Source: Sciscionella marina DSM 45152 (GTDB taxonomy: Bacteria; Actinomycetota; Actinomycetes; Mycobacteriales; Pseudonocardiaceae). From it: a stretch of 64,000 bases of DNA. How positions within the stretch are numbered: the stretch's first letter is position 1; each line of letters begins with the position of its first letter. The stretch spans positions 191 to 64,190 of the forward strand of contig NZ_KB905387.1 of the NCBI RefSeq assembly GCF_000379465.1, in the 5' to 3' direction. Made by a program: the position numbers and the translations under genes. Under the pieces are notes generated by a model. The model searched no databases, was not told where the DNA came from, and saw only the letters and a program-made list of their open reading frames with translations. Of the stretch, positions 13,150-52,525 are shown piece after piece.

Positions 13150-13158
13150 CCGAGGAAC

Positions 13159-16242: not shown

Positions 16243-16255
16243 GGTGCCCTCCTGC

Positions 16256-18863: not shown

Positions 18864-18898
18864 CGCACCTCCTGGGTATTCCGGGCCCATCCTGCCAC

Positions 18899-18934: not shown

Positions 18935-18969
18935 TGAGCTGTTCGACGAGGCGGACCTGAGGAGTGACG

Positions 18970-22598: not shown

Positions 22599-22732
22599 TG
22601 CTTCCACCTTCCGGTCGGCCGATGCGGGCACACGGCGCGCCCGTGGCTCTACGATGTGGGAGGCACGTCGATATCGAATCGAGGCGTCCTCGAGTCACGG
22701 GTCACCGCGTCCGCTTTCCGAGGACGGTCTCG

Positions 22733-25256: not shown

Positions 25257-25266
25257 GCCGTTCCTC

Positions 25267-26505: not shown

Positions 26506-26517
26506 CTTCCCTCCGTC

Positions 26518-27282: not shown

Positions 27283-27288
27283 CGGTCG

Positions 27289-30016: not shown

Positions 30017-30316
30017 TCAGTCGAGAATGGAACTGCCTTCACGTACGGGCGAGTACATATCGGGTTCGACCGAGGCGAGCGCGACAAGGCGCTGGACAAG
30101 GTCCTGGAAACCCGCGCTCTTGATGGCGTTCTGGTGCGCTTCGGCGGTGATCCACCAGGCGATCTCGACGAAGACCTCTGGCTTGTTGATCGAACGCAAC
30201 AGGGCGTACCGAACGTAGCCGGGCTGCTTTTCCATGTATCGGGTGAGCTCCTCGCTCACCTTCTCGAATTCCGCGATATCGCCGTGCACGGTGAGCTTGT
30301 TGACCAGTGTGACCAT
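30017..30316 (-). CDS. Antibiotic biosynthesis monooxygenase (ABM) domain protein
   Basis: The 99-residue protein has the ABM ferredoxin-like fold signature: LVNKLTVHGDIAEFEKVSEEL, PGYVRYALLRSIN, FVEIAWWITAEAHQNAIKSAGF. TcmH/ActVA-Orf6 relatives are cofactor-free and oxidise anthrone-type intermediates to quinones. This is the likely quinone-forming step. It follows the acyl-CoA ligase gene by 23 bases. Confidence 0.85.
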   Translation of the reverse strand: MVTLVNKLTVHGDIAEFEKVSEELTRYMEKQPGYVRYALLRSINKPEVFVEIAWWITAEAHQNAIKSAGFQDLVQRLVALASVEPDMYSPVREGSSILD

Positions 30317-33743: not shown

Positions 33744-34526
33744 TCAGTAGCTGCCGAGGCCACCACAGACATTGAGTGCCTGTGCGGTGATCGAGGCGGC
33801 TTCCGCAGTGGTCAGGTACTCGACGAGACCGGCGACCTCGTCCGCCGTCGAGTACCGGCCGAGCGGAATCTTGGCCTGGAAGTCGGCCAGGATCTCCTGC
33901 TCGGTTACCTTTCCGGCATTGGCGTACGCCTCGCGGATGCGCGCCGCCATCGGTGTCTCGACATATCCGGGGCAGACCGCGTTGACGGTGATGCCGCTGG
34001 TGGCCAGTTCCTTGGCGAGCGCCTTGGTGAAGCCGATGACACCGGCTTTGGACGCGGAATACGGAGCGCCGAGCGGTACCCCCTGTTTACCGCCGGTGGA
34101 GGCGATGTTGATGATGCGGCCATCGCCGGAGTTGCCGAGTTCGCCGGTGGTCAACGCTTCCCTGGTGAGCCGGAAGACACTGTTCAGGTTGGTCTCCATG
34201 ACGTCGTCCCACAGTTCGTCGGTTATCGAGGCCGTGTAGCCGCCACCGCTGCGGCCCGCGTTGTTGACCAGGACACTGATCGGCCCAAACCGGTCCACCG
34301 TGGCCCGTACCAGCTTGTGCAGCGTATGCGGATCACGCACATCGGTGGCGATACCGTCGCCCCGCAATCCCTCACCGGTGAGTTCGGCGACAGTTTCGTC
34401 GACCGCCGCCTCGTCGCGCGCGCACAGGAATACGTTCATGCCGCGCCGGGCAAGCCTGGCGGTGATCGCGCGGCCGATGCCGCTTGTTCCGCCCGTGACC
34501 AGTGCCGTGGCCTGATTGTCGGTCAT
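33744..34526 (-). CDS. Type II PKS C9-ketoreductase (ActIII-like)
   Basis: The 260-residue SDR has NADP motif TGGTSGIGRAI, NNAGRSGGG (the GRSGGG loop is specific to ActIII-type polyketide ketoreductases), INIASTGGKQGVPLGAPYSASKAGVIGFTKAL with catalytic Ser and YxxxK, and CPGYVETPMAARIREAYA. It reduces the C-9 carbonyl of the nascent poly-beta-ketone and steers first-ring closure at C7-C12. It lies 90 bases after the CLF gene and just ahead of the aromatase pair. Confidence 0.92.
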   Translation of the reverse strand: MTDNQATALVTGGTSGIGRAITARLARRGMNVFLCARDEAAVDETVAELTGEGLRGDGIATDVRDPHTLHKLVRATVDRFGPISVLVNNAGRSGGGYTASITDELWDDVMETNLNSVFRLTREALTTGELGNSGDGRIINIASTGGKQGVPLGAPYSASKAGVIGFTKALAKELATSGITVNAVCPGYVETPMAARIREAYANAGKVTEQEILADFQAKIPLGRYSTADEVAGLVEYLTTAEAASITAQALNVCGGLGSY

Positions 34527-34616: not shown

Positions 34617-35876
34617 TCAGGCGAATTCGGTGACGACGATCGCTGAGTTGAAACCACCTCGGCCGCGGGCGAGCACGAGCGCCGCGCGCAGCCGGGCAGC
34701 ACGCGGTTCGTCCCGGACCAGGTCGAGGCCGTACTCCTGCGGGAGGTCGCGGACATTGACCGTCGGCGGGATCACCTGGTCCCGGATGGCGAGCAAAGCG
34801 GTGGCCACGTCGAGGGAACCGCCGCCCGCGTACAACCGACCTGTCATGGTTTTCGGTGCCGTGACCGGAATCCCGTGCCGCCCGAAGATCGTGGCGAGCG
34901 CCGCGGCTTCGGCGCTGTCGGCGGTTGCGGTTCCCGCCGCATCGGCGAAGACGACGTCGATATCCGCGGGACCGAGACCGGCATCATCGATAGCGAGTTC
35001 CGCGGCCCTGCGCAGGCCCGGTTCCCGCGCGGGGTCTCGCGAGTCGAACGTCGCCGCGTAGCCCGCGATCTCACCGTAGGCTTCCGTTCGGCGTGTACGC
35101 ACGGAGTCGTCGTCCTCGAGAATCAGCATCGCGCCGCCCTCACCCACGACGTGCCCGTTCACCTCGCGGTCGAAGGGGAGATACGCCGTAGCGGGATCGG
35201 TGCGGGTGCTGAGCGTGCCGCAAGCCTGATGGGCCACCCAGGCCCACGGACACAGCGAACTGTCGATCGCACCGCTGACGGTCAATCGGGCACCAGACCG
35301 TAACTGGCGGCGCGCCTGGCCGATCGCATCCAGCCCGCCGGCCTGTTCGGAGACCACGACCGCACCGGAACCGCGGATCCCGTGCCGAATCGAGATCTGA
35401 CCGGTGTTGACCGCGTAGAACCAGGCGAACGACTGATAGGTGCTGACGAAGTCGGGCCCCTGGTGCCACAGCTTCTCCAGTTCCCGCTGCCCGAATTCGT
35501 AGCCGCCCGCGGTCGCGCCGGTGACCACCGTTCGCGAGTAACCGTCCCCGTTGTCCGGCGGGGCACCGGAATCGGCGAAGGCCCAGTCGGTAGCGGCAAG
35601 GGTCATCTGCGTCATGCGGTCGGTCTGGGTCACCAGTTTCCCGGACAGGTACGCGCTCGGGTCGAAAACGCGGACCTCCCCGGCCAGCCGCGCCCAGTAG
35701 CGAGACGGATCGAATCGGGTCAGTGGCCGGATCGCGCATTCCCCGCGCAGCGTGGCCGCCCAGTGCTCTTCGGCGCCGAGCCCGGTCGGGGCGAGGATAC
35801 CGATGCCGGTGACCACGGCGCGGGTGGTCGGCGGAGTCCGTGCGATCGAACCAGCCCTGGCGACCTCGGCGGTCAT
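34617..35876 (-). CDS. Type II PKS chain-length factor (KSbeta)
   Basis: The 419-residue protein is a ketosynthase fold with Gln178 in place of the active Cys (VVVSEQAGGLDAIG), the diagnostic CLF substitution. Other marks are AVVTGIGILAPTGLG at the N-terminus and FDREVNGHVVGEGGAMLILED. It pairs with KSalpha as the heterodimer that sets chain length. Its ATG overlaps the KSalpha stop (ATGA at 35873-35876), so the two are made together. The longer open frame seen upstream overlaps KSalpha and is not used. Confidence 0.93.
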   Translation of the reverse strand: MTAEVARAGSIARTPPTTRAVVTGIGILAPTGLGAEEHWAATLRGECAIRPLTRFDPSRYWARLAGEVRVFDPSAYLSGKLVTQTDRMTQMTLAATDWAFADSGAPPDNGDGYSRTVVTGATAGGYEFGQRELEKLWHQGPDFVSTYQSFAWFYAVNTGQISIRHGIRGSGAVVVSEQAGGLDAIGQARRQLRSGARLTVSGAIDSSLCPWAWVAHQACGTLSTRTDPATAYLPFDREVNGHVVGEGGAMLILEDDDSVRTRRTEAYGEIAGYAATFDSRDPAREPGLRRAAELAIDDAGLGPADIDVVFADAAGTATADSAEAAALATIFGRHGIPVTAPKTMTGRLYAGGGSLDVATALLAIRDQVIPPTVNVRDLPQEYGLDLVRDEPRAARLRAALVLARGRGGFNSAIVVTEFA

Positions 35877-37150
35877 GGTCGCACCGTCCTGCGCAGGAGC
35901 ATCGCCGTCTGGAACCCACCGAAGCCACTCCCGACGGTGAGCGCGCTTGCCACCCGTTGTTCGCGGGCGACAAGCGGGACGTAGTCGAGATCGCATTCCG
36001 GATCGGGCTCGTGCAAATTCGCCGTCGGCGGGATGACGCCCTGTTCGAGGGCCAGCAGGCAGCCGACGATCTCGAGTGAACCGATGGCGCCGAGCGAATG
36101 CCCGACCATGGATTTGAATCCGCTGACCGGGATGCGGTAGGCATGCTCGCCAAGGCTGCGTTTGAAGGCGGCCGTTTCGTGCCGGTCGTTCTGTTTCGTG
36201 CCGGAACCGTGCGCGTTGATGTAATCGACCTCGGTGGCATTCATGCGTGCCTGGTTCAGTGCGGAACCGATCGCCTCGGCCATTTCGCGTCCGTCCGGGT
36301 GCAGGCCGGTCATGTGGTAGGCATTGCACCGGGACGCGTAACCCGCGATCTCACCGTAGACATGGGCGCCACGGGCCCTGGCACGTGCCTCGTCCTCCAG
36401 GACGAGAATGGCCGATCCCTCGCCAAGGACCAGCCCGTCGCGTGTCTTGTCGAAGGGGCGGCAGGAGTGCTCGGGATCGTCGTTGCGCCGCGAACTCGCC
36501 CGGATGACGTCGAAGCACACCGTGGTGATCGGGGAAAGCGGTGCCTCGGTCGCGCCGGTGAGTACGAGATCGGCCGAGCCCTCTGCGATGAGTTCGGCGG
36601 CGTGTCCGACGGAGTCCAATCCCGAAGTGCATCCGGTGGACACCACGTTGACCGGGCCCTCGGCGCCGATGAGCGAAGCCAGCTCCGCGGCCATGGAACT
36701 CGGTGCGAAGTGCTCGTAGAGGTGCGGGATCGTGTATCGCGGATCGACGTGCCACTCCCGTCCGAGATCGCTGCCGATGACGTACTCGCGCTCGAGGCTC
36801 GTGGTGCAGCCGACCGCGCTGCCGAGCGCAACCGCGGTGCGGTGCGAATCGAGGGCGTCGACTTCGATCCCCGCGTCCTCGATGGCTTCCTTGCCCGCGA
36901 CGAGCGCGAACTGGGCCGCGCGGTCGAGGCGGCGGATCTCCCGTGGGCTCAGTCCCTCGGCGACCGGGTCGAAATCGCATTCGGCCGCGATACGGGACCG
37001 ATACTGGCGGGCGTCGAACTGCGTGATGTTCCGCGTCGCCGTTCGCCCATTGGCGAGTAGGTCCCAGAATGCTTTGGTACCGATTCCGCCCGGCGCGACC
37101 GAGCCGATACCGGTGATCACGGCGCGCCGACTCGCGGTCCATGTCGACAT
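35873..37150 (-). CDS. Type II PKS ketosynthase alpha (KSalpha)
   Basis: The 425-residue ketosynthase has active Cys174 in VVSTGCTSGLDSVGHA, with the catalytic His motifs NAHGSGTKQNDRHE and MVGHSLGAIGS. It extends the polyketide by decarboxylative condensation of malonyl-ACP. ATG 37150 has GGAG just upstream. It heads the long leftward operon KSalpha-CLF-KR-ARO-ARO-ligase-ABM-oxygenase-OMT-SDR-oxygenase-cyclase. Unusually the ACP gene is not downstream but divergent, 156 bases away. Confidence 0.94.
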   Translation of the reverse strand: MSTWTASRRAVITGIGSVAPGGIGTKAFWDLLANGRTATRNITQFDARQYRSRIAAECDFDPVAEGLSPREIRRLDRAAQFALVAGKEAIEDAGIEVDALDSHRTAVALGSAVGCTTSLEREYVIGSDLGREWHVDPRYTIPHLYEHFAPSSMAAELASLIGAEGPVNVVSTGCTSGLDSVGHAAELIAEGSADLVLTGATEAPLSPITTVCFDVIRASSRRNDDPEHSCRPFDKTRDGLVLGEGSAILVLEDEARARARGAHVYGEIAGYASRCNAYHMTGLHPDGREMAEAIGSALNQARMNATEVDYINAHGSGTKQNDRHETAAFKRSLGEHAYRIPVSGFKSMVGHSLGAIGSLEIVGCLLALEQGVIPPTANLHEPDPECDLDYVPLVAREQRVASALTVGSGFGGFQTAMLLRRTVRP

Positions 37151-37306
37151 GAGGCTCCAATCCGTACTCCGATACCGACCGAGCTTGCCGACCGGCATTG
37201 GAGTTCTCTTCGAGCCGGTGTGGTCGCCTTCGTCTCGATCGAGACTCGAACATCCGGCGATCCCGCTTTGTCACTCTCGGCCCCGATAAGCGAAAGGGAG
37301 ACTGGT
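37151..37306. promoter_or_regulatory. Divergent promoter region between KSalpha and ACP operons
   Basis: These 156 bases lie between the start codons of KSalpha (leftward) and ACP (rightward) and must hold promoters for both PKS operons. The right side has AAAGGGAG seven bases before ATG 37307. No strong palindrome is seen; heptamer repeats for the SARP were not confidently found. Confidence 0.5.
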
Positions 37307-37558
37307 ATGCGTGAACTGACACTCGAAGAGCTCGTGGTGATCATGCGGGAGAACATGGGGGACGAGTACACGGCTCCACACGGAACGGAGTTACTCGACA
37401 TGGAGTTCACCGCGCTCGGATACGACTCTCTTGCCCTTCTCGAGATGCTCGCCCATGTCAAGCGCAAGTACGGTATTGCCGTTTCGGATGACGAGGTCGA
37501 AGGAATTCAGACCCCACGTGTATTCCTCGAAAAAATCAATGCCGCCGCCGGGAATTAA
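37307..37558 (+). CDS. Type II PKS acyl carrier protein
   Basis: The 83-residue ACP has the phosphopantetheine serine Ser41 in LGYDSLALLEML, preceded by the usual acidic helix 1 (LEELVVIMREN). It carries malonyl and growing chains for KSalpha/CLF. Codon 29 is TTA, the rarest leucine codon in these genomes. It is the first gene of the rightward operon with the acyltransferase, KASIII-like protein and type I PKS. Confidence 0.93.
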   Translation: MRELTLEELVVIMRENMGDEYTAPHGTELLDMEFTALGYDSLALLEMLAHVKRKYGIAVSDDEVEGIQTPRVFLEKINAAAGN

Positions 37559-37574
37559 CACGAGAGCCTGCGCA

Positions 37575-38591
37575 ATGGCAGAAGTCGCCCTGCTCTTTCC
37601 TGGGCAAGGAGCGCAGCAACGCGGGATGGCGACCGGTCTCTATGGGTGGGCACCGGTTTTCACCAAGGTCATCGATTCCGTTTTCGGACTGATGGGGACT
37701 GAAGGCAAACGGATCCGTGCCGATTGGCTCGGCATCTGTTCGCTGATCGATATCGATGATGTCCGCAGGGCCCAGCCGCTGTTGTTCGCGGTGGACTACG
37801 CGCTCGCCAGGATGGTTCTCAGCTGGGGTGTCACGCCGGTAGCATTGCTCGGGCACAGCGCGGGGGAACTCGTCGCCGCCACGCTCGCCGGGGTGTTCAC
37901 CCTCGAGGAGGCGGTTCGGGTACTGCTCGGCCGGGTGCGCGCGGCCGCCAATGGTCCGGAAGGTGGCATGCTCGCGGTCGCGGCTGGGGCCGATGATCTG
38001 CTCCGGTACCTGACCGGTGACGTCGCGGTCGCCGCGGTGAACGGCCCGCGCCAGACCATGCTCGCCGGTACCACCGAGCACCTGCGTTCGGTCGACGAGC
38101 GGTTGCGTGCCGATGATTTCACCGTACGTGCGGTGCCCGCTCGCAATCCCTTTCACAGTCCCGCGATGGGGCCCGTGGGACGGGAGGCGAAGCGGGCCGT
38201 CGAGAAAATCCCGTTGCGAGCGCCCGAATCGCTGATCTATTCCGGGTACACGGGGTTTCCGCTCGGTGCTGCCGAGGCGCGCGATCCCGAGTTCTGGTCC
38301 CGGCAGCTCACTGATCCGGTGTATTTCGGCCCGGCCCTGGATCGGCTGCTCGCCCGACGAGAGCTGTCGCTCATCGAGGCGGGGCCCGGCCAGACCCTCA
38401 CGACGTTCGCTCGCCGGCACCGGGCGCTCCGCAGCGGGCGAAGCGAGAGCATCCCGCTCTCGCCCGTCCACCCGGATCACGAGGCGGACCGGCAGGCATT
38501 GCTCGCCGTCGCCGACCGATTCGGAGCATCGGAAAACCTTGCCGCTACGCCTATTCCGGTCTCGGAGGCGGCGTTCGTCAACGGAAGGTGA
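37575..38591 (+). CDS. Acyltransferase (MCAT-like) for starter or extender loading
   Basis: The 338-residue acyltransferase has the substrate loop FPGQGAQQRGMA, nucleophile Ser95 in LLGHSAGELVAA and the specificity/catalytic His motif NPFHS (191-195). The first two residues differ from the malonyl HAFH and methylmalonyl YASH types. Relatives near KASIII-like genes in hybrid clusters (ZhuC/DpsD/PokM3 type) either edit the starter or load malonyl. ATG 37575 starts MAEVALLFPGQGAQ, 16 bases after the ACP stop. The KASIII-like gene follows after three bases. Confidence 0.85.
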   Translation: MAEVALLFPGQGAQQRGMATGLYGWAPVFTKVIDSVFGLMGTEGKRIRADWLGICSLIDIDDVRRAQPLLFAVDYALARMVLSWGVTPVALLGHSAGELVAATLAGVFTLEEAVRVLLGRVRAAANGPEGGMLAVAAGADDLLRYLTGDVAVAAVNGPRQTMLAGTTEHLRSVDERLRADDFTVRAVPARNPFHSPAMGPVGREAKRAVEKIPLRAPESLIYSGYTGFPLGAAEARDPEFWSRQLTDPVYFGPALDRLLARRELSLIEAGPGQTLTTFARRHRALRSGRSESIPLSPVHPDHEADRQALLAVADRFGASENLAATPIPVSEAAFVNGR

Positions 38592-38594
38592 AAC

Positions 38595-39638
38595 GTGAGA
38601 CTCGACGAGGTGTTCCTGGTCGGTACGGGGAGGTTCCTTCCTCCGGCCCTGTCCATCGAGCGGGCCGAGGAGTCCGGGCTCGTCCGGCGCAGTGCCGTCT
38701 GGCGTACCGGGATCACCTCGGTTTGCGTCTCCGAGTCCGAGTCGGGTCCGGACATGGCGGTGCGTGCGGCGGAGTCGGTGCTGGCGACCACCGGATGCCG
38801 GCCCGCGGACATCGATCTCGTGCTGCACGCGAGTTTCTACTACCAAGGTCACGACCTGTGGCCGGCCGCGTCCTATGTGCAACACCACGCGCTGGACAAC
38901 ACCTGTCCGGCCATCGAGATCAATCAGATGTCCAACGGTGGGATGGCCGCGCTCGAGCTCGCCACGGCCTACCTGCTCGCCGATGAGACGAAACGATACG
39001 CACTCATCACGACGGGAGACCGGTTCTGTGCCCCGGGAATCGACCGCTGGACGAGTGACCCCGGTACGGTGCTCGCCGATGGTGCCACGGCCGCGATCGT
39101 GTCCACGCGGGGCGGCTTCGCGCGAATCCGAAGCCTGGTGACGATATCCGATCCGAGCCTGGAGGGAATGCAGCGCGGACGGGATCCGGTCGCCGATGCG
39201 CCGCTGGCGACAAGGAAACCCATCGCGGTCGAGGAGCAACGGCGCTCGTTCATTGCGCGCAACGGGCTCGATTCGGTCCTCGACCGCATCGACTCGGGGC
39301 AGCGTGAGGTGCTGAAACTGACGCTGGCCGACGCGGGGACAGAGCTCGACCAGATCGATTGGTTCGTGCTGCCGAACCTCGGCCGCGGACGGCTCGACGA
39401 ATACTTCCTGCGCAAGTTCGACATCGATCCCGAGCACACCACCTGGTCCTGGGGAAGCCGGATCGGTCACCTTGGCGCGGGAGATCAGTTCGCCGGTCTG
39501 GGGCACCTGGCCGATTCCGGTCTCCTGCGTCCCGGGCAGCGCTGCCTGCTGCTCGGTGCGGGCGCCGGATTCAGCTGGTCCGGTGCCGTTGTGGAGATCA
39601 CCTCGATTCCCGAAGGAGAGCACGGCATCCATGCGTGA
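38595..39638 (+). CDS. KASIII-like starter-transfer protein with Ser nucleophile (DpsC-type)
   Basis: The 347-residue thiolase-fold protein has Ser113 (INQMSNGGMAALELA) at the place of the KASIII cysteine, as in DpsC of anthracycline pathways. It has Asn261 (VLPNLG) where FabH has a His. His292 and Asp297 lie in IGHLGAGD, a motif shared with KASIII-like acyl transferases that move starter or sugar-acyl groups. It likely selects or transfers the unusual starter instead of condensing. The GTG start follows the acyltransferase stop; its own stop overlaps the type I PKS start by eight bases, tying the two functions. Confidence 0.85.
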   Translation: MRLDEVFLVGTGRFLPPALSIERAEESGLVRRSAVWRTGITSVCVSESESGPDMAVRAAESVLATTGCRPADIDLVLHASFYYQGHDLWPAASYVQHHALDNTCPAIEINQMSNGGMAALELATAYLLADETKRYALITTGDRFCAPGIDRWTSDPGTVLADGATAAIVSTRGGFARIRSLVTISDPSLEGMQRGRDPVADAPLATRKPIAVEEQRRSFIARNGLDSVLDRIDSGQREVLKLTLADAGTELDQIDWFVLPNLGRGRLDEYFLRKFDIDPEHTTWSWGSRIGHLGAGDQFAGLGHLADSGLLRPGQRCLLLGAGAGFSWSGAVVEITSIPEGEHGIHA

Positions 39639-42600
39639 TTTCGACATCGTTTCTACGCCACCCGAGCCGATCGCGATCGTCGGTATCGCATGCCGATTAC
39701 CGGGAGCCGGTGACGCCAGGGAGTTCTGGCGGATGTTGCGGGCGGGGGTCGACGCCGTGGGTGAGATACCCGCACACCGGCACGTCGCGGAGTCCCCACT
39801 GCTGCGGTTCGGCGGCTGTCTCGACCGGGTGGACGGCTTCGATGCGCAGTTCTTCGGGATCTCCGCGCGTGAGGCGCGGGTCATGGACCCGCAGCAACGG
39901 CTGATGCTCGAACTGGGCTGGGAGGCGTTCGAGGATGCGCGTACCCCTCCCGAGCGCGCCCGGGGCGATAGAGTGGGCGTGTTCGTCGGCGCGATATGGG
40001 ACGACTACGCCACTCTCGCGCACCAGGCGGGTGTTCCGATCGGCCAGCACACCCTGACCGGCACACACCGCGGCATCATTGCCAACCGGATTTCTTATGC
40101 GCTCGGGCTGACCGGTCCGAGTCTCGTTGTCGACACCGGACAGTCCTCTTCCTTGGTCGCCGTGCATTCCGCGTGCCTGAGCCTGTGGAACAAGGAATCC
40201 TCGCTTGCGCTCGCCGGCGGGGTCAACCTCAACCTCGCCCCTCAGAGTGCCGAGGAGGTCATCGAATTCGGTGCGCTTTCCGCGGATGGGCGATGCTTCA
40301 CCTTCGACGCCCGCGCGAACGGTTACGTCCGTGGCGAGGGCGGTGCGCTCGTCGTGCTCAAACCCCTGACCGCGGCGCTCGCCGACGGTGACCGGATCTA
40401 TGCGAGCATTCGCGGTGCCGCGGTCAACAACGACGGCCACACCGACGGACTGACAGTGCCCGGCGAACGGGCGCAGGAGGAGCTGCTGCGCGCGGCGTAC
40501 GCGCGCGCGGGAGTGGAGCCCGGCGATGTGGACTATGTCGAGCTGCACGGGAGCGCGACCAAGGTCGGTGACCCGATTGAGGCGGCGGCTCTCGGAGCCG
40601 TGTTCGGACAAGGGCGATCGGCGCGGCAACCGCTGCGGGTCGGTTCGGTGAAGACCAATATCGGGCATCTGGAAGGCGCGGCCGGTATCGCCGGCCTGGT
40701 CAAAACGGCGTTGTCGCTTGCCAACCGCGAACTTCCGCCGAGTTTGCATTTCGTCACGCCGAATCCACGGATACCGTTGGAGCGGCTGCGATTGCGCGTT
40801 CAGGATTCCCGCACCGGCTGGCCACGCGCGGGCATCCGGTTGCGCGCCGGGGTTTCGTCCTTCGGGATGGGAGGGACGAACTGTCACCTCGTGCTGGAGG
40901 AAGCGCCCGAAGCCGCGGCGGATCAAACCGATCCGGGTACCGGAGTCGTTCCGGTCCCGCTTTCGGCCGCCTCGGCGGGCGCTCTGCGAGATGCCGCGCA
41001 CGCACTCGCGGACCTGCCCCACCGGCAGGAGATCACACCGGCCGACCTCGGCTACTCGCTCGCGCGAACCAGAGCACGACTGCGCCAGCGTGCCGTCGTG
41101 CTCGCCGAGGACCGGGCTGAACTCGATGCCGGGCTTGGTGGCCTCGCCGACCGCAAACCGGTCGCGCAACTGGTCCGGGGCGAAGCCAGGGACACCAAGC
41201 TCGCCTTCGTGTTCTCCGGGCAGGGCGGACAGCGCGCGGGCATGGGAAAGAAACTGTACGCGCGGTTTCCCGTTTTCGCCGAGGCGTTCGACGCGGTGTG
41301 CGCCGAGTTCGACCGCAGGCACTCCGGCGGCTTCCGGCTACGGGAGATCGCCTGGAGCGAGGACACCGAACCGCTCGGGCGCACCGACTACGCGCAGGCC
41401 GCGATCTTCGCGGTGCAGATCGGGCTGTATCGGTTGTTCGAATCCTGGGGAATACGACCGGATTTCGTTGTCGGGCACTCGCTGGGGGAACTCGCCGCGG
41501 CACACAGCGCGGGCGCGTACTCGCTTGCCGATGCGGTTTCGCTGCTCGTCACCCGAGCGCGGCTGATGCAGTCGCTTCCCTCGGGGGGCGCGATGGCTTC
41601 CCTGCGTGCCGGCGTGGCGGAGATACGACCGCTGATCGAAGACACCGAGGTGGATATCGCCGCGGTCAACGGGCGGGAATCGGTGGTCATCGCGGGCGCG
41701 GACGAGGCGGTGGAACGCGTCTGCGCGCGATTCGCGGCCTTGGGGCGTGAACCCAAACTGCTTTCGGTCAGCCACGCCTTTCACTCGCCGCTGCTGGATC
41801 CGATTCTCGATGAGCTCGGTTCGTTCGCGGCTGGCCTTCCCGACACTGGCCCACGCGAATGCGGATTCGTCTCCACCGTAACGGGTTCCCTGATGGACAG
41901 GGGCGAGGCGTTCCCGGCCGGGTACTGGCGGCGGCAGGCAAGGGAACCGGTCCGGTTCGCCGAGGCACTCGATTCGCTCACCGCGCTCAGTGTCGGTCTG
42001 TTCCTGGAGATCGGGCCGTCCGGGGAGCTCAGTTATCTCACGGCCAGGCATCTCGCCGAATCCGATGCGCTCGTGGTCCCGGGGACCCGGGCAGGCGATG
42101 AACCGCGCGCCACTCTGACCGCCCTCGCTCGGCTGCACACCGCTGGGGTCGAACCGGACTGGCGTGCGGTGTTCGGTCACCGACGCGTGGTGGACCTGCC
42201 GACGTATCGATTTCAGCGCGAACCGTACTGGTTCACCGATGCCGCTCCGGAAGTGCCCGCGCCTGCCGAGGCGTCGACCGTATCGATCACCGAGTCCGTC
42301 AGAGCGGTGATCGCGGCCGTGCTCGGGGTGCGGCAGGAACGGCTCGACGAGCAGGCCACCTTCGCCGATCTCGGGGTGAGTTCCCTGATGGCCACGGAGT
42401 TGTGCGAACGCCTCGGTGGAATCGACGGGGTGCGGGTGAACACCAGCGCGCTGTTCGATCACCCCACACCAGCCAGACTGATCGAATACCTTGGCGAGCG
42501 GGCCGGAGACAGTGAAACTCGAGGGTTTTCCCGAACGAGCACTTCGGGATCCGCGGAACCGATCGCGATCCTGGCGATGTCCTGCCGGTTTCCTGGCGGG

Positions 42601-45600
42601 ATCGATTCGCCGGGCGGACTGTGGGATCTCGTTCTGGCCGAAGGCGAAGCGATCTCGCCGTTGCCGGAGGACCGCGGCTGGGATCTGGCCGGGCTGGCCG
42701 ATGCCGGTGAGTCGGTGCCGCGCCACGGTGGGTTCCTCACCGGTGCCGATCGGTTCGACAACGAGTTCTTCGGCATCAGCCCACGCGAGGCAACCGCGAT
42801 GGATCCGCAGCAGCGGCTCCTGTTGCAGACCGCTTGGGAAGCCTTCGAGCGGGCCGGTCTCGATCCGCGCGGGCGCTCGGACGTCGGCGTGTTCGTCGGC
42901 GCGAGCGCGCAGGAGTACGGCTCTCGCCTTGCCGAACGCGGTGGTGAGCACGAGGGCTACCGGCTCACCGGGAGCACGGTCAGCGTGGCCTCGGGACGTA
43001 TCGCCTATGCCCTCGGCCTTGGCGGACCGGCCATGACCGTGGACACGGCGTGTTCGTCCGCGCTGGTCGCGGTGCATCTGACGATGAACGCGCTGCGCAC
43101 CGGTGAGTGCTCGCTCGGGCTCGCTTCCGCGGCGACGGTGATGTCCGAGCCCGGAATGTTCGTCGAGTTCGCGAAACAGGGCGGGCTTGCCCCGGACGGC
43201 CGGTGCAAGGTCTTCGCGGCGGGCGCCGATGGGACGGCCTGGGCCGAGGGGGTCGGTGCGCTTGTACTCGAACGCCTCTCCGACGCCGAGCGTCTCGGGC
43301 ACCCGGTACTGGCGGTGTTGCGCGGAAGTGCGGTCAATCAGGACGGGGCGAGTAACGGGCTGACCGCGCCCAACGGGCTGGCTCAGCGGCGCGTGATCGG
43401 CACCGCCTTGCGTTCCGCGGGGCTCGAGCCCGCCGATATCGACGTGCTCGAGGCACACGGTACCGGCACCCGACTCGGCGACCCGATCGAGGCGAACGCG
43501 CTGCTCGCCGCCTACGGCGAAGGGCGTGAACCGAGCCGTCCACTGTGGATCGGATCGGTGAAATCGAATATCGGGCACACTCAGGCGGCGGCGGGGATCG
43601 CCGGGATCATCAAGATGGTCGAGGCGATGCGGGCCGGTGTGGTACCGAGATCGTTGCATCTCGACGAACCATCCGAGCACGTCGACTGGTCGGCCGGAGT
43701 GCTCGCACCGCTGCACAGCGCCCGGTCATGGGATTCGGGAGACCACCCCCGCCGCGCCGCGGTGTCTTCGTTCGGAATTAGCGGCACGAACGCGCACGTG
43801 GTACTGGAGCAAGGACCGACCGATGGTCCGGAACCGCTCACCGGCCCCGATCGGTCGCGGCCTTTCGTACTTTCCGCGCCCACCCCGGTCGGGCTTCGGG
43901 CACAGGCGGGACGGTTACGCGAATACCTCGCGTCCCGGCCGGCGGCATCCCTCGCCGATATCGGGCGGACGCTGGCGACCGCACGGGCCGTGTTCGACCA
44001 TCGTGCGGTCGTGCTTGCCGAGGACCGCGAAACCCTGCTCGACGGGCTTGCCGCGATCGAACGCGGGGAATTCTCGCCCGCCGTCGTGTCCGGCAGGGCC
44101 GAGGATGGCGCGGTGGTGTTCGTATTCCCCGGCCAGGGTGCGCAATGGCCCGGTATGGCGCGCGAGCTGCTTGCCGATGCGCCGGTATTCGCCGAGCGAA
44201 TGCGGGAGTGTGCCGCAGCGTTCGAACCGCATGTGGAGTGGTCGCTTCTGGCGGTACTGCGCGGGGAACCGGGCGCCGCACCGCTTACCCGTGTGGACGT
44301 CGTGCAGCCGGTGCTGTTCGCGGTGATGGTCTCGCTCGCCGCGCTGTGGGAGTCACTGGGTATTCGCGCAGACGCGGTCCTCGGGCATTCTCAGGGTGAG
44401 CTCGCCGCCGCCTGCGTCGCCGGCGCGTTGAGCCTCGAACAGGCGGCCGCGTTGGTCGTCGCCCGCAGTAGGGAGATCACTCGGCTCGCCGGTACCGGTG
44501 GAATGGCCTCGATCGCGCTCCCTGCCGAGGAAGTCCGTCAGCACATCGACGGCCGCGCGGATGTGCACATCGCCGCGATCAATGGGCCGAGGTCGACGGT
44601 TCTGGCCGGAGCGCAGGACACGCTCGCCGGACTCGTCACCGAGCACCGGTCACGGGGGGTGCACGCGCGCGTGATCGAGGTGGACTACGCCTCACATACC
44701 CCGGACGTCGAGGTGCTTCGCGCCGCACTCGAGGAGCAGTTCGCCGGGCTCGTGACCGAGCGGCCGCGGATCCCGTGGTATTCGGCGGTCACCGGTGAAC
44801 CGGTCGCGGATCGGCTCGACGGCGGCTACTGGTACCGCAATATGCGGGCACCGGTGCAGTTCGCGCGAGCGGTGCGGGCAGCGGCCGAGCAGGGGCATCG
44901 GATCTTTGTGGAATGCAGCCCGCATCCCGTACTGACCCTCGGTGTCGAGGACACGCTCGCCGATGGCGGCAAGCCCGGCGTCGTGGTGGGGACGCTGCGT
45001 CGCGAGGAAGGCGGCTGCTCGCGTGTGCTGCGTTCGCTCGCGGAAGCTTTCGTCGGCGGAGCACGAATCGACTGGACGCGGCTGCTCCCCGAAGGCCGTA
45101 CCGTCCCCGGGGAATTGCCGACCTACGCGTTCCAGGAGAAGCGTTACTGGCTGGCGGGTAACCGCCCCGGGCTCGATATCGGCACCCTCGGGCTGGCCAC
45201 GGCCGGACATCCGATGCTCGGTGCGATGGTCGAACTTCCCGAGTCCGGTGGACTGGTCGCCAGCGGTGTCATTTCCACGCGAACGCATCCCTGGCTGGCC
45301 GAGCATGCCGTTTCCGGTTCGGTGCTGGTGCCGGCGACGGTGTTCGCGGAGCTGGCGTTGTCGACGGGAGGCCAGGTCGGGTGCGGACAGCTCGCGGAGC
45401 TCGTTCTCGAGTCACCGCTCGTGCTTTCCGAGCGCGGCGACGCGGTGACCATCCGGATCGAGCTCGGCGGCCCAGGAAAATCCGGCGAGCGGCCGATCGC
45501 GTTGTGTTCCGGACCAGGCCAGGTCTCCGGGGAGACGGAGTGGGTCCGCCATGCGCACGGTTCATTGGAGCCGGTCCGCGCGAAGTCCGTCGCGGCGGCT

Positions 45601-48600
45601 GGACACTGGCCACCCGAACGGTCCGAACCTGTCGAGGTCGGGGACTGCTATGCGCGGCTCGCCGAACGGGGACACGAATACGGCGCCTCGTTTCGGGCGC
45701 TGCGGGCGGTGTGGCGCCGCGATGACGAGATCTTCGCCGAGATCGAGCTCCCCGAAGCGCGGCGCGGCGACGGCTATCCCGTGCATCCGGCGCTGCTGGA
45801 CGCGGCACTGCACGCCCTGCTCGGCTTCGGGCCGTCCGCACAGGAGACCGAGCCGTCGCTGCCTTTCGAACTCGGCGGTATGACCGTCCAGGGCCAGGGC
45901 ACCACGAGCGCGCGTGTGCACATCACGCCGGGTGGTAGCGGGACCGTCTCACTCGCGCTCAGCGCGGACGGGCAGCCGGTGTGCACTGTCGAACGACTGG
46001 TACTGCGCCCCGCGAAGCCGGGCTGGGATCCGGGTGCCCTCGACTCGCTCTACTGGCTCGACTGGATTCCGCGCGACCGCGAGCGAAGCAGGGTGCATGC
46101 CGCGGTCCTCGGCGCGGCCGGACTCGGCGGTCCCCGACCGTATCCGGACCTGTCCGCGCTGCGGCGAGCACGGGACGTGCCGGAACTCGTGTTCACAGCC
46201 GTGGACGGTTTCGGCGGTGCCGATCCGGCCGAGGACGCGCTCACGGTCACGACCGGGGTGCTCGAACTGGTGCGGCGCTGGATCACCGAGGAACGGTTCG
46301 CCGGATCACGGCTGGTGTTCGTGACCCGTGGCGCGGTCCCCCTCGACGGTCCCACCCTGGCCGCAGGGCTTGGTCAATCGGCGGTCTGGGGACTGGTTCG
46401 GTCCGCGCAGTCCGAGCATCCCGGGCGGTTCGGCCTTGTGGACGTGGATACGGATGTGTCGTTCGATCTGTTGCTCGACGCGGTGGGGACCGGAGAACCA
46501 CAGCTCGCCATTCGCGAGGGGCGGTCGTTGGTGCCGCGCCTCGCCGAGATCGGCACACATCCGGGTATCCGACTGCCGAAGGGGCCGGGGAACTGGCACC
46601 TGGAACTGGCTCGTCAGGGCGCGCTCGATGATCTGGTGCCGCGCTCCGATCCCGCCGGTTCCCGCCCACTGGAGGCCGACGAGGTGCGTGTCGAGATCCG
46701 TGCCGCCGGGGTGAACTTCCGGGATGTCGTGGTCGCACTCGGGATGGTCCCCACCGAGCAGGGGATCGGCATCGAGGGCACCGGTGTGGTGCGCGAGGTG
46801 GGTTCGGCGGTATCTGCGTTCGCGCCGGGGAACCGGGTGTTCGGTATGATCGAGGGCGCCTTCGGCTCGTCCGCGGTCGCCGATCAGCGGCGGCTGGCCA
46901 GGGTTCCCTCGGACTGGTCGGACATCGAAGCGGCCTCGGTGCCGATCGTGTACCTCACCGCCTATCACGGGTTCGTGTCCCTCGCCGGGCTCGCCGCCGG
47001 GGAATCCGTGCTGATCCACGCGGCTACTGGCGGGGTCGGTATGGCCGCCGTCGCGCTCGCCTGCTTGCTCGGCGCCGAGGTCTTCGCGACGGCCAGCCCC
47101 GGCAAGTGGGACACTTTGCGTGCGATGGGGATCGACGAGAACCACATCGCCTCATCCCGTTCGCTCGACTTCGAGGCGGAGTTCCGCGCTGCGAGCGGTG
47201 GGCGTGGAGTCGACGTGGTGCTCAACTCGCTCACGGGTGAGTACATCGACGCCTCGTTGCGGTTGCTGGCTCCGGGTGGCCGGTTCATCGAGCTCGGGAA
47301 GACCGATATCCGCGATCCCCGGCAACTATCCGCAGAACATCCCGGAACGCGGTATCACGCGTTCAGCCTGCCCGAGCTTGCCCCTGAGCGGATCGCTACC
47401 ATGCTCGCCGAGCTCATGGACCACTTCGCGCAGGGGCGACTGCACCCGGTCCCGGCAGTCGCCGCGGACGTGCGTCGCGTTCCTGGCGTGTTGCGTCGGC
47501 TCGGTAGTGCCGCGCACACCGGAAAACTCGTGCTGACCGTACCCCGCTCGCTCGATCCGGAAGGCACCGTGCTGATCACGGGCGGCACCGGAACCCTCGG
47601 CCGCCTGCTGGCACGGCGCCTGGTCACCGAACATGGTGTGCGAAATCTGGTGTTGCTCGGTCGGCGCGGCCCGGATGCGGACGGTGTCGCCGAGCAAGTG
47701 GAAAAGCTCGCCAGACTGGGCGCCGAGGTCCAAGTGCTTGCCTGCGATGTGAGCGACCGTGCGGAACTTCGGCGCGTGCTTGAGGATATACCGCGAGAAC
47801 ATCCGCTCACCGGGATCGTGCACGCTGCCGGAGTGCTCGACGACGGACTGGTCGAATCGCTTTCGACCGGGCAGCTTTCCCGGGTGTTCCAGGCGAAGGC
47901 GAAAGCCGCCTGGTTACTGCACGAGCTCACCGCGGATACGCGGCTGGCGATGTTCGTACTGTTCTCCTCCGCTTCCGGACTTTTCGGCGAAGCTGGTCAG
48001 GCCAATTACGCCGCGGCGAACGCCTTTCTGGACGCCCTCGCGGGATATCGCCGTGCGCACGGTCTGCCCGTGAGCTGTCTCGCCTGGGGACTGTGGGAAG
48101 CGCGTGGTGGTATGACGGCACATCTCGGTGAGAGCGATCTGGTCCGCTTGCGGCGCACCGGGATGGGCCAGCTCTCGGTGGTTCGCGGACTGAGTCTGTT
48201 CGACTTGGCCGGCACCGTCGACGAAACCGTGCTGGTGCCGGTCGCGGTGCAACGGCGCGAGTTGCGGTCCGGTCCGGAGCTTCCCGCCGTGCTCGAGAAC
48301 CTGGTCGAGCCTTCACCTTCTCCCGGCGGGGAATCCGCCGATCGGGTCGAGGGAACGGCCACACTCGGCGAACGGCTGCGCGATATGCCGGAGAGCGACC
48401 GGCGACCGGTGCTGCTCGACCTGGTGCGCGCCGAAGCAGCGACTGTCCTCGGCTATCCCGAGGCCGGTGAGGTCGCGGCCGAACTACCGATGACGGAGCT
48501 GGGATTCGATTCGCTCACCTCGGTGGAACTGCGCAATCGTCTCAACTCGGCCACGGGACTGCGGTTGACATCGAACACCGTGCTTGAATCGCGAACGTTG

Positions 48601-48642
48601 ATGGACCTCATCGAGGTGATCGGAGTCGAGTTGGCCACGTGA
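39631..48642 (+). CDS. Type I modular PKS: KSQ-AT-ACP / KS-AT-DH-ER-KR-ACP
   Basis: The 3003-residue PKS has a loading module and one extension module. Loading: KSQ with Gln171 for Cys (DTGQSSS), AT with Ser617 and HAFHS 715-719 (malonyl type), ACP with Ser918. Extension: KS Cys1141 (DTACSS), AT Ser1587 with YASH at 1686-1689 (methylmalonyl type), DH His1892 (HAVSGSVLVP) and Asp2057, ER with GGVG near 2467, KR (ITGGTGTLG near 2650, LDD-type B motif) and ACP Ser2961. All reductive sites look intact. There is no thioesterase or docking tail. Predicted product: 2-methylbutyryl-ACP, from acetyl plus fully reduced methylmalonyl, to be passed to the type II PKS. Confidence 0.93.
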   Translation: MRDFDIVSTPPEPIAIVGIACRLPGAGDAREFWRMLRAGVDAVGEIPAHRHVAESPLLRFGGCLDRVDGFDAQFFGISAREARVMDPQQRLMLELGWEAFEDARTPPERARGDRVGVFVGAIWDDYATLAHQAGVPIGQHTLTGTHRGIIANRISYALGLTGPSLVVDTGQSSSLVAVHSACLSLWNKESSLALAGGVNLNLAPQSAEEVIEFGALSADGRCFTFDARANGYVRGEGGALVVLKPLTAALADGDRIYASIRGAAVNNDGHTDGLTVPGERAQEELLRAAYARAGVEPGDVDYVELHGSATKVGDPIEAAALGAVFGQGRSARQPLRVGSVKTNIGHLEGAAGIAGLVKTALSLANRELPPSLHFVTPNPRIPLERLRLRVQDSRTGWPRAGIRLRAGVSSFGMGGTNCHLVLEEAPEAAADQTDPGTGVVPVPLSAASAGALRDAAHALADLPHRQEITPADLGYSLARTRARLRQRAVVLAEDRAELDAGLGGLADRKPVAQLVRGEARDTKLAFVFSGQGGQRAGMGKKLYARFPVFAEAFDAVCAEFDRRHSGGFRLREIAWSEDTEPLGRTDYAQAAIFAVQIGLYRLFESWGIRPDFVVGHSLGELAAAHSAGAYSLADAVSLLVTRARLMQSLPSGGAMASLRAGVAEIRPLIEDTEVDIAAVNGRESVVIAGADEAVERVCARFAALGREPKLLSVSHAFHSPLLDPILDELGSFAAGLPDTGPRECGFVSTVTGSLMDRGEAFPAGYWRRQAREPVRFAEALDSLTALSVGLFLEIGPSGELSYLTARHLAESDALVVPGTRAGDEPRATLTALARLHTAGVEPDWRAVFGHRRVVDLPTYRFQREPYWFTDAAPEVPAPAEASTVSITESVRAVIAAVLGVRQERLDEQATFADLGVSSLMATELCERLGGIDGVRVNTSALFDHPTPARLIEYLGERAGDSETRGFSRTSTSGSAEPIAILAMSCRFPGGIDSPGGLWDLVLAEGEAISPLPEDRGWDLAGLADAGESVPRHGGFLTGADRFDNEFFGISPREATAMDPQQRLLLQTAWEAFERAGLDPRGRSDVGVFVGASAQEYGSRLAERGGEHEGYRLTGSTVSVASGRIAYALGLGGPAMTVDTACSSALVAVHLTMNALRTGECSLGLASAATVMSEPGMFVEFAKQGGLAPDGRCKVFAAGADGTAWAEGVGALVLERLSDAERLGHPVLAVLRGSAVNQDGASNGLTAPNGLAQRRVIGTALRSAGLEPADIDVLEAHGTGTRLGDPIEANALLAAYGEGREPSRPLWIGSVKSNIGHTQAAAGIAGIIKMVEAMRAGVVPRSLHLDEPSEHVDWSAGVLAPLHSARSWDSGDHPRRAAVSSFGISGTNAHVVLEQGPTDGPEPLTGPDRSRPFVLSAPTPVGLRAQAGRLREYLASRPAASLADIGRTLATARAVFDHRAVVLAEDRETLLDGLAAIERGEFSPAVVSGRAEDGAVVFVFPGQGAQWPGMARELLADAPVFAERMRECAAAFEPHVEWSLLAVLRGEPGAAPLTRVDVVQPVLFAVMVSLAALWESLGIRADAVLGHSQGELAAACVAGALSLEQAAALVVARSREITRLAGTGGMASIALPAEEVRQHIDGRADVHIAAINGPRSTVLAGAQDTLAGLVTEHRSRGVHARVIEVDYASHTPDVEVLRAALEEQFAGLVTERPRIPWYSAVTGEPVADRLDGGYWYRNMRAPVQFARAVRAAAEQGHRIFVECSPHPVLTLGVEDTLADGGKPGVVVGTLRREEGGCSRVLRSLAEAFVGGARIDWTRLLPEGRTVPGELPTYAFQEKRYWLAGNRPGLDIGTLGLATAGHPMLGAMVELPESGGLVASGVISTRTHPWLAEHAVSGSVLVPATVFAELALSTGGQVGCGQLAELVLESPLVLSERGDAVTIRIELGGPGKSGERPIALCSGPGQVSGETEWVRHAHGSLEPVRAKSVAAAGHWPPERSEPVEVGDCYARLAERGHEYGASFRALRAVWRRDDEIFAEIELPEARRGDGYPVHPALLDAALHALLGFGPSAQETEPSLPFELGGMTVQGQGTTSARVHITPGGSGTVSLALSADGQPVCTVERLVLRPAKPGWDPGALDSLYWLDWIPRDRERSRVHAAVLGAAGLGGPRPYPDLSALRRARDVPELVFTAVDGFGGADPAEDALTVTTGVLELVRRWITEERFAGSRLVFVTRGAVPLDGPTLAAGLGQSAVWGLVRSAQSEHPGRFGLVDVDTDVSFDLLLDAVGTGEPQLAIREGRSLVPRLAEIGTHPGIRLPKGPGNWHLELARQGALDDLVPRSDPAGSRPLEADEVRVEIRAAGVNFRDVVVALGMVPTEQGIGIEGTGVVREVGSAVSAFAPGNRVFGMIEGAFGSSAVADQRRLARVPSDWSDIEAASVPIVYLTAYHGFVSLAGLAAGESVLIHAATGGVGMAAVALACLLGAEVFATASPGKWDTLRAMGIDENHIASSRSLDFEAEFRAASGGRGVDVVLNSLTGEYIDASLRLLAPGGRFIELGKTDIRDPRQLSAEHPGTRYHAFSLPELAPERIATMLAELMDHFAQGRLHPVPAVAADVRRVPGVLRRLGSAAHTGKLVLTVPRSLDPEGTVLITGGTGTLGRLLARRLVTEHGVRNLVLLGRRGPDADGVAEQVEKLARLGAEVQVLACDVSDRAELRRVLEDIPREHPLTGIVHAAGVLDDGLVESLSTGQLSRVFQAKAKAAWLLHELTADTRLAMFVLFSSASGLFGEAGQANYAAANAFLDALAGYRRAHGLPVSCLAWGLWEARGGMTAHLGESDLVRLRRTGMGQLSVVRGLSLFDLAGTVDETVLVPVAVQRRELRSGPELPAVLENLVEPSPSPGGESADRVEGTATLGERLRDMPESDRRPVLLDLVRAEAATVLGYPEAGEVAAELPMTELGFDSLTSVELRNRLNSATGLRLTSNTVLESRTLMDLIEVIGVELAT

Positions 48643-49259
48643 CAGGGTCTACGGACCAGAAGGTTCGGGTTCGAATCCTGGCACGCTATGGAGCCACGAC
48701 GAGCAGTGGACGGGCCCTCCGATACAGGTCACTGAGTCCGTTGGTGTCCGTCGCGCAGGATCGTCGCATCGGGAGCCGGTACCGCCACCGGCCCGTTCCA
48801 TGCCGAAGGACCAACTCCCGCTTCATGAGGACTGTTGTACGACCGTCAGATGACCGGTGCGACGAGCCGGCGGTCTCCAGCGGAGCCCACCGCCGCGCTG
48901 GCAGGCCACGCGCTCCGACGCGACACCGTCAGACTTTGCAGTCACTTTCGGTGATAAGGCCGATGGAGCTGCCCGTAACCGCCTCGTCAAATCTTCGCAT
49001 GCGGTCGATCGACGGATAATGGAAAGCCACTGACCAGCAGGTTTAGGTTCGGATATTGCCTTGTTGGGTGCGCGTACTGGATCTACACACTCCTGGCCTG
49101 CCTGTTTGGCGGGCTTTTTGTGTGTGGTGGGCATGGTGGCGTTGATCCTTTCCGCTGCTTCGGTGATGTGGGGTACGGCGTCGGCGGGGAGTTTGATGGT
49201 GACGGTGATCTGGTCGGTGTCGCAACGCCCACCGATGCCTGATCTTCGGCGGATGCGCC
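48643..49259. other. Gene-poor stretch after the PKS
   Basis: No convincing gene is seen in these 617 bases. A leftward frame covering 48823-49317 has one protein-like stretch (ITVTIKLPADAVPHITEAAERI), but its remaining residues look random and it overlaps the MFS remnant. The region looks like decayed accessory DNA marking the right edge of the biosynthetic cluster. Confidence 0.5.
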
Positions 49260-49592
49260 ATGGTGCCGGCCGCCGCGATGGCAATCCTGCTCCCGATCGG
49301 GCCACCACTGATAACACTCACCGCCTTGCTGGCACTGCTCGGTGTACCCAACGAGCTGATCGTCGGCGCGAACCAAACCCACCTCTACGAACAGGCTCCC
49401 GCGAACGCGATCGGAACCATGGCTGGAATCTACCGGTCGAGCCAGTTCACCGCAGGTGCTGTCGTCACCTACTATCTCGGACCGACCAGCGGAAACCGAA
49501 CCGCCGTAGCCGCAGCAGCGATCGGACTCATGGTGATCTTCACCTTCGCCACGACGACCAGCAATTACACACGAAACGAGCTAAAAAGATAG
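49260..49592 (+). pseudogene. C-terminal fragment of an MFS transporter
   Basis: A 110-codon frame encodes the last helices of a major facilitator: PLITLTALLALLGVPNELIVGANQTHLY, then APANAIGTMAGIYRSSQFTAGAVV, a string typical of the cytoplasmic loop before helix 13 in DHA-type pumps. No upstream part with motif A or helix 1 is found in any frame, so it is a truncated remnant. Confidence 0.65.
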
Positions 49593-52036: not shown

Positions 52037-52093
52037 GCAGCCCGGCGTAGGACAAACGCGGGGCGATTCGTATCCGAGAAAGGAATGAGAACG

Positions 52094-52525
52094 ATGAACG
52101 AAACGCGATCGAAAGGCAACTCTCGGCTGCTCAAGGCGGGCATCTCCGTGTTCGCCGCGACCATCATTTCCCTCGGCATGAGTACGGTGGCCTCGGCGGA
52201 GCAGGCCGCACCGGAGACTAAGCAGGTTTCGGTGAAAAAGGACTACTGCGGTGGGAAAGGACCGAGCAAATGGGTGCCCGACCACTGGGGGAAGGCCAAC
52301 TTCGCCGGGTCGTGCAAACGACACGATGCTTGCTACTCGCCCAAGAGCCACACCGATCGGCTGACCTGCGACCGGGCTTTCCGCAACGACATGCGGCGGG
52401 TATGTCATGACACCTACGCGTCAGGGGTCAAGCAGCGGCTCTGCCTCGGAATGGCGAATACCTACTACAAGGCCGTTCGCAAGTACGCGAAGAGCCATTA
52501 CAAGGGTTCCGGCGATCCGAGCTGA
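52094..52525 (+). CDS. Secreted phospholipase A2-like protein
   Basis: The 143-residue protein has a signal peptide ending near VASA-EQ. The PLA2 core is WGKANFAGSCKRHDACY, with His-Asp (catalytic dyad) flanked by Cys, followed by RLTCDRAFRNDMRRVC. This matches small bacterial and fungal PLA2s that cleave the sn-2 ester of phospholipids with calcium. Four to six Cys suggest disulfides, fitting export. ATG 52094 (AAAGGA nine bases ahead) is favoured over ATG 52085. Confidence 0.8.
   Translation: MNETRSKGNSRLLKAGISVFAATIISLGMSTVASAEQAAPETKQVSVKKDYCGGKGPSKWVPDHWGKANFAGSCKRHDACYSPKSHTDRLTCDRAFRNDMRRVCHDTYASGVKQRLCLGMANTYYKAVRKYAKSHYKGSGDPS

Follow-up and report, generated by a model that had tools for sequence, protein, structure and literature searches.

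A fused type I polyketide synthase and a DpsC-like acyltransferase in Sciscionella marina: a probable 2-methylbutyryl starter cassette for a type II polyketide synthase

Priming of type II polyketide synthases (PKSs) by type I enzymes was established with hedamycin, and work on kidamycin has since revealed a closer relative of the system that we describe here. In the kidamycin study, Kid13, a protein with a decarboxylating ketosynthase (KSQ) loading module, and Kid14, a methylmalonyl-using protein that contains an enoylreductase, supply "four- and six-carbon intermediates"; disruption of kid13 abolishes kidamycin, photokidamycin and rubiflavinone C-1, and kidamycin depends on kid13 for its branched side chain of four carbons (PMC10646177). 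That a type II PKS can receive a branched starter made de novo is, with kidamycin, already published. Here, we analyse 64,000 nucleotides of Sciscionella marina DSM 45152 (bases 191-64190 of contig C8, NZ_KB905387.1, in an 8.5-Mb genome; hereafter the window), in which a KSQ loading module and a fully reducing extension module are fused in one protein, encoded in an operon next to a type II minimal PKS. We argue that this operon is probably a starter-unit cassette that gives 2-methylbutyryl to the type II PKS.

Four tightly packed genes on the plus strand span positions 37307-48642. They encode a discrete type II acyl carrier protein (ACP; 37307-37558; PF00550, 32.9 bits) with its Ser in LGYDSL and AAAGGGAG ahead of its ATG, a discrete acyltransferase (AT; 37575-38591; PF00698, 141 bits) with GHSAGE and NPFH, a DpsC-like ketoacyl synthase III (KASIII) acyltransferase (38595-39638) confirmed by Pfam, and a bimodular type I PKS of 3003 residues in a single open reading frame (ORF; 39631-48642). 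The ACP and AT genes are 16 bases apart and the AT and KASIII genes 3 bases apart, while the KASIII and PKS genes overlap by 8 bases. The mechanically called PKS frame opens at a TTG at 39472; the true start is likely the ATG at 39631, which is preceded by GAAGGAGAG and lies 8 bases within the 3′ end of the KASIII gene. Transcribed divergently from the operon, from 37198 on the minus strand, are the genes for the ketosynthase (KS) alpha subunit (35873-37198), with its Cys in TGCTSG and a 603-bit match to the actinorhodin KS (1tqy), and for the chain length factor (CLF; 34617-35855), in which Gln replaces the Cys (VVSEQAGG). An earlier note on this DNA had placed a single-protein PKS in one operon with the ACP, AT and KASIII genes, with the same outer coordinates, and the ORFs, Pfam matches and gene spacing agree with it.

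The domain order of the fused PKS is KSQ-AT-ACP followed by KS-AT-dehydratase (DH)-enoylreductase (ER)-ketoreductase (KR)-ACP. Pfam finds two KS, two AT and two PP-binding domains, a DH, an ER (ADH_N/ADH_zinc) and a KR (KS E 6e-158, AT E 5e-150), and no thioesterase occurs among the 22 families matched in the protein. The first KS (39667-41076) has DTGQSSS and is therefore read as a decarboxylating KSQ; it is followed by AT1 (41200-42090; GHSLGE, HAFH), the edges of both domains being approximate, and by ACP1 (42295-42492; PF00550). The extension module comprises a KS (42556-43662; DTACSSA; PF00109/PF02801), AT2 (44116-45066; GHSQGE, YASH; PF00698), a DH (45208-46014; PF21089/PF14765) with HAVSG...P and DAALH, an ER (46675-47535; PF08240/PF13602) with HAATGGVG, a KR (47563-48099; PF08659) with GGTGTLG, FSSAS and NYAAAN, and the terminal ACP2 (48469-48621; PF23297; active Ser in LGFDSL), all on the plus strand. 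These motifs, together with the active Ser of both ACPs, were read directly; with the Pfam matches they uphold what the earlier note had said of the KSQ with its malonyl-type AT, of the fully reducing methylmalonyl module and of the missing thioesterase. GHSLGE in AT1 and GHSQGE in AT2 agree with malonyl and methylmalonyl specificity, respectively. HAFH is the malonyl and YASH the methylmalonyl signature as given in PMC10646177. With HAFH in AT1 and YASH in AT2 the logical product is therefore 2-methylbutyryl, which by standard PKS logic would be made on the last carrier by a protein without a release function of its own.

The ER also suggests a configuration for the methyl branch. Numbering its sequence NFRDVVVALGMVP, with the motif NFRDVVVALGMV, from the counterpart of Tyr52 of Escherichia coli quinone oxidoreductase, a residue of the GLYP motif of that enzyme, we find Val at positions 46′, 47′ and 52′ and Pro at 53′. 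According to PMC6264292, Tyr at 52′ goes with a 2S and Val with a 2R product, and Val at 46′ and 47′ is commoner in 2R enzymes. The methyl centre of the starter would thus probably be (2R). L-isoleucine, by comparison, gives (2S)-2-methylbutyryl-CoA. We predict that the starter is made de novo rather than from isoleucine, and a single stereocentre in the side chain would distinguish the two origins; the predicted (R) centre, opposite to that of isoleucine-derived 2-methylbutyrate, is without precedent in the literature that we searched.

How would an acyl group leave a PKS that lacks a thioesterase? The KASIII is the likely candidate. Its best structural relative is DpsC (PDB 4xs7; 340 bits), ahead of CerJ (233 bits) and ChlB3 (192 bits), and its nucleophile is Ser113 and not Cys as in CerJ and ChlB3, which are acyltransferases of ester pathways. 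The earlier note had made no mention of this Ser. Compared with the FabH of the same genome, Cys is changed to Ser113, His to Asn261 and Asn to His292, and Asp297 is extra; the resulting Ser113-His292-Asp297 triad aligns with Ser118-His297-Asp302 of DpsC. According to PMC12664062, the DpsC triad serves self-acylation and ACP loading. PMC9573744 states that DpsC His266 helps to stabilise the enolisation step and that the KSIII-like ChlB3 takes 6-methylsalicylate from a thioesterase-less type I PKS and transfers it to a discrete ACP. In the printed alignments the equivalent of His266 is Asn261 in the window's KASIII, Val in CerJ and Gly in 7vyu. Because this position is Asn, the window's KASIII is predicted to transfer acyl groups and not to condense them, and the Asn/His difference bears on the distinction between condensing and transfer-only enzymes.

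A survey of relatives places the operon in context. The KSQ domain with part of its linker, tried as a search anchor, matched 126 of 390 family genomes at E ≤ 1e-160 and was useless for counting because most matches lay in long ORFs that are probably ordinary modular PKSs, and the KASIII was therefore used instead. It matched in 137 of the 390 genomes at E ≤ 1e-40, with 30 loci returned (the window and 29 others), and 40 kb was read around nine of them. In six of the nine a fused PKS is present, with 49-55% identity over nearly all 3003 residues: G086, G117, G331 (Prauserella shujinwangii) and the Crossiella-group genomes G186, G188 and G189. All six share the KSQ, HAFH and YASH, the catalytic His and Asp of the DH, the motifs of ER and KR and the active Ser of each ACP, and a Gly of the DH motif is Asp in the three Crossiella proteins. 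KS-alpha and CLF genes lie near the PKS in five of these six regions (40 kb fetched), the exception being G189. No PKS of the fused kind was found in the 40 kb around the KASIII of G265 and G364, and the fused protein of G062 (L047/L048) contains three KS domains. A third KS was also observed in a longer fused protein of Actinomadura litoris (G392; L172), and the three-KS proteins of these two genomes suggest that cassettes of this kind may also make longer starters.

Among genomes of named species, 159 homologues of the KASIII were confirmed and 80 returned, with flanks of at most 10 kb, so that more distant PKSs would be missed. The triad is kept in 80/80 of these homologues, and at position 261 His occurs in 68, Asn in nine, Ala in two and Gln in one. 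The flanks of 13 of the 80 loci contain a KSQ-type I PKS. A single ORF encodes both loading module and extender KS in six (L061, L087, L088, L089, L090 and L115), of which L061, L087 and L089 duplicate genomes already counted among the family loci, L088 encodes a three-module protein, L090, labelled fused in the tree below, reaches the extender KS before its contig ends and L115, likewise cut by a contig end, is readable only to residue 1110 of the window's PKS. Separate ORFs are found in the other seven (L059, L060, L064, L067, L068, L075 and L080). As side observations, the KASIII of L065 and L069 adjoins a different type I PKS with an ordinary ACSS KS motif and no GQSS, which may supply another acyl group, and those of L077 and L085 lie by a different type I PKS as judged from match positions alone. 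Searches of plasmid records returned 13 and 39 matches, all in the band below 60% identity and uninformative on the product.

A tree built from 89 KASIII rows places the window in a 17-row clade with full support (100/100). Fourteen rows of this clade are labelled for a nearby KSQ-type I PKS, and the only three other rows so labelled, all from Crossiella, are placed elsewhere. The three unlabelled rows are G062, which had been assigned to neither the fused nor the split group though it carries the fused three-KS protein, L070, with no type I PKS in 20 kb, and L063, with none in 40 kb. Two members of the clade, L068 and L075, show the order and AT motifs of Kid13, AT(QAFH)-KSQ-AT(VAGH)-ACP. All ten rows labelled fused have Asn at position 261, as does G062 (11/11), and the seven split rows all have His. 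These counts are not independent, since three of the fused rows are related Crossiella, and the Fisher test applied to them takes no account of relatedness. As read from the tree, the history involves about one gain and one loss of Asn, a separate gain in Crossiella and further gains in L119 and L136. The link between Asn261 and the fused PKS is suggestive only: Asn is also the residue in Streptomyces sp. Root431 (L119), where 40 kb contain no type I PKS, and in Kitasatospora xanthocidica (L136) and Streptomyces sp. SA15 (L070), where the KASIII lies near a contig end.

The active Ser and Arg of the discrete AT align with those of both PKS ATs, and gene position and fold make it likely to be an editing or loading AT of the DpsD/ZhuC kind. 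According to PMC12664062, the DpsD homologues ZhuC and EncL are editing thioesterases that strip acetyl from the ACP, while GilQ loads propionyl; PMC10646177 says that HedF, the counterpart of the first AT of Kid13 (AT1-1), is not involved in forming the hedamycin side chain. Editing seems the more likely role here, because the CLF retains its Gln and could start chains from acetate.

From these data we infer the substrates, the carrier-to-carrier transfer, the stereochemistry and the final structure as follows. AT1 would load malonyl onto ACP1, where the KSQ would decarboxylate it to acetyl. After the extender KS has condensed this acetyl with a single methylmalonyl unit, full reduction by KR, DH and ER would leave 2-methylbutyryl, probably R, on ACP2. 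The Ser-His-Asp KASIII would then pick up the acyl group and hand it to the discrete ACP or directly to KS-alpha, the discrete AT would probably remove acetyl-ACP or otherwise favour the C5 starter, and KS-alpha/CLF would extend the chain to an aromatic polyketide whose starter end bears a sec-butyl group. The 2-methylbutyryl starter, as the earlier note had proposed, is made likely by the domain order, the AT signatures, the missing thioesterase and the operon with ACP, AT and KASIII genes, and also because the KASIII clades with loci of the Kid13/Kid14 type, kid13 being needed for the aglycones.

Several points weigh against this proposal. PMC10646177 reports that the AT motifs of Kid13 failed to predict its substrates and that HedU is held to iterate, and the sequence by itself is compatible with iteration of the window's module as well; the KASIII relatives CerJ and ChlB3 serve ester pathways, as PMC9573744 describes. 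Of the six full-length relatives, only three (G331, G086 and G117) show a match to the discrete AT within the region fetched, and Nocardiopsis flavescens, which lies within the window's KASIII clade, shows no type I PKS in 40 kb around the KASIII. On the stereochemical side, Pro at ER position 53′ is atypical of the 2R group, and position 52′ is Leu in Prauserella, with Val in the other five of the six full-length relatives.

What else could the operon make? The 2-methylbutyryl group might end as an ester or amide on a sugar or on the core, with the KASIII acting like CerJ or in a relay of the ChlB3 kind. Acyltransferases of the same fold form esters in cervimycin and chlorothricin, and the window contains deoxysugar genes and a glycosyltransferase. 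However, the KASIII is much nearer to DpsC than to either of these enzymes, has Ser as its nucleophile and clades with kidamycin-type loci, the operon includes a type II ACP and an AT, and a genome search with fabH, which gave four places, found no second KSIII-like acyltransferase on contig C8; we regard this outcome as unlikely, if the least so of the alternatives. A longer or mixed starter would arise if the module iterated or took another loading unit, as with hedamycin or the kidamycin/rubiflavinone pair. Besides the precedent of HedU, Kid13 also loads ethylmalonyl according to PMC10646177, and a third KS is present in the relatives from Actinomadura litoris and G062. AT1, however, has the canonical HAFH and not the VAGH of the second AT of Kid13 (AT1-2), no AT is fused ahead of the KSQ, and an iterating methylmalonyl AT would yield a doubly branched chain, which puts this explanation, improbable in our judgement, next in rank.

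It is also conceivable, if very improbable, that the PKS serves a separate small acyl product and merely neighbours the aromatic genes. Adjacency alone does not prove a shared pathway; against a separate product, the PKS gene overlaps that of the KASIII, in line with the ACP and AT genes, and the same type of PKS recurs near the KASIII and, in five of the six full-length relatives (40 kb), near KS-alpha/CLF. A 2-methylbutyryl starter for the type II PKS therefore remains our preferred interpretation.

The surrounding genes bear on the aglycone and its sugar. Downstream of the CLF gene, on the minus strand, lie a type II ketoreductase (33744-34526), two aromatase/cyclase genes (31892-32749 and 32770-33711; PF10604/PF03364), an acyl-CoA ligase (30340-31899), an ABM monooxygenase (30017-30316; PF03992), and a PF04199 cyclase, two FAD oxygenases, a short-chain dehydrogenase/reductase (SDR) and an O-methyltransferase (24483-29989). 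The minus-strand glycosyltransferase (21390-22631) belongs to the activator-dependent family (TIGR04516; 300 bits, under the cut-off of 440). Amino-deoxysugar genes for an aminotransferase, a 2,3-dehydratase and a C-methyltransferase lie on the plus strand within 10430-16302, and a methyltransferase of the same group, probably an N-methyltransferase, is on the minus strand at 15490-16302. The earlier note had compared the product with espicufolin-like pluramycin aglycones. The sugar genes agree with a pluramycin-type cluster: relative to the kid-type region of Streptomyces rubiginosohelvolus, the aminotransferase is 67%, the 2,3-dehydratase 48%, the C-methyltransferase 60% and the N-methyltransferase 47% identical, so that N,N-dimethylvancosamine-type sugar genes are present as far as these four go. 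The aglycone genes do not support the comparison, as the PF04199 cyclase has no match in that region and identity is only 25-29% for the acyl-CoA ligase and the two FAD oxygenases (ABM 36%), and we dropped the assignment of the whole cluster as a pluramycin cluster. These genes are nearer to a Streptomyces musisoli cluster (cyclase 59%, ligase 46%, ABM 43%, FAD oxygenases 55% and 53%, SDR 52%), which has no type I PKS within 21 kb. Pluramycin clusters have two C-glycosyltransferases, and one glycosyltransferase was seen among those of the window's proteins that were scanned. Comparison with PDB entries assigned the FAD oxygenases, the cyclase and the glycosyltransferase to broad classes only.

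Other observations concern transport, processing and the cluster edge. At 18240-20568 a TetR protein resembling tetracycline repressors is divergent from an OtrB-like efflux gene of the major facilitator superfamily (MFS), both under their model cut-offs, and a DrrA-like ABC gene, also below its cut-off, lies in the window; together they hint at a planar tetracyclic product. Inside the cluster, 16256-18160 encodes an alpha-L-rhamnosidase-like protein, the start of which looks by eye like a signal sequence; it could unmask a glycosylated product extracellularly. Directly past the PKS stop codon, a stretch like a tRNA T-arm (48658-48682; a single genomic copy, in which ARAGORN calls no tRNA) is possibly an old integration site, and the remnant of an MFS transporter C-terminus at 49260-49592 (by eye) likely marks the cluster edge. 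Beyond it, a small secreted protein (52085-52525) resembles bacterial phospholipase A2 by eye (CGGKGPS...CKRHDACY). Outside the window, a second multi-module type I PKS region lies at about 95-120 kb of the same contig (L001, L002, L056).

The starter unit of a type II PKS is difficult to alter at will. If the proposal is true, a single protein with a dedicated shuttle, found in nature alongside different aromatic clusters, would offer a ready-made part with which to place branched, stereodefined side chains on aromatic cores. A broader picture, which we put forward tentatively and with doubts that outweigh our confidence, is of a portable cassette of fused PKS and pure-shuttle KASIII, with Ser-His-Asp kept and the DpsC His266 lost, that would pass (R)-2-methylbutyryl from carrier to carrier into unlike type II clusters, here towards a tetracyclic aminosugar aromatic of an undescribed kind, and that lineages may swap, split, fuse or lengthen.

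In conclusion, the locus resembles several known systems and coincides with none. Daunorubicin shares the Ser-His-Asp KASIII and discrete AT (DpsC/DpsD) but has a propionyl primer and His266 where the window has Asn. Chlorothricin (ChlB1/ChlB3/ChlB2) shares the KSIII-like transfer from a thioesterase-less type I PKS to a discrete ACP but has an iterative aromatic PKS, a Cys nucleophile and an ester as end use. In trioxacarcin 2-methylbutyryl likewise primes a type II PKS with the help of a KSIII, but there it derives from L-isoleucine, as PMC9570651 describes. Hedamycin, the precedent on which the earlier note relied, holds as such: HedT/HedU prime a type II PKS alongside the DpsC-like KASIII HedS and the discrete AT HedF, but they are two proteins, of which HedU is held to iterate with malonyl to a hexadienyl unit. 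Kidamycin, which the note had not cited in this role, is the closer experimental precedent, with a KSQ loading module, an ER-containing methylmalonyl extender and hand-over to a type II PKS. There, however, the modules lie on two proteins, with an extra AT (QAFH) fused before the KSQ and VAGH in the loading AT, whereas the window has one protein, the canonical HAFH, the extra AT as a separate gene and other aglycone tailoring genes. Among the traits of the hedamycin/kidamycin type, the window thus has the KSQ loading and reducing extender modules, no thioesterase, and the linked minimal PKS and DpsC-like KASIII, but not the division over two proteins. No fused version of such a hybrid starter PKS was found in the literature searched, which left most subscription papers outside its coverage. 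The principle is already known; what this locus adds, as far as that literature shows, is the fusion of loading and extension modules in one protein with a single loading AT and a KASIII that keeps the acyl-transfer triad with Asn at the position of DpsC His266, together with the predicted stereochemistry.

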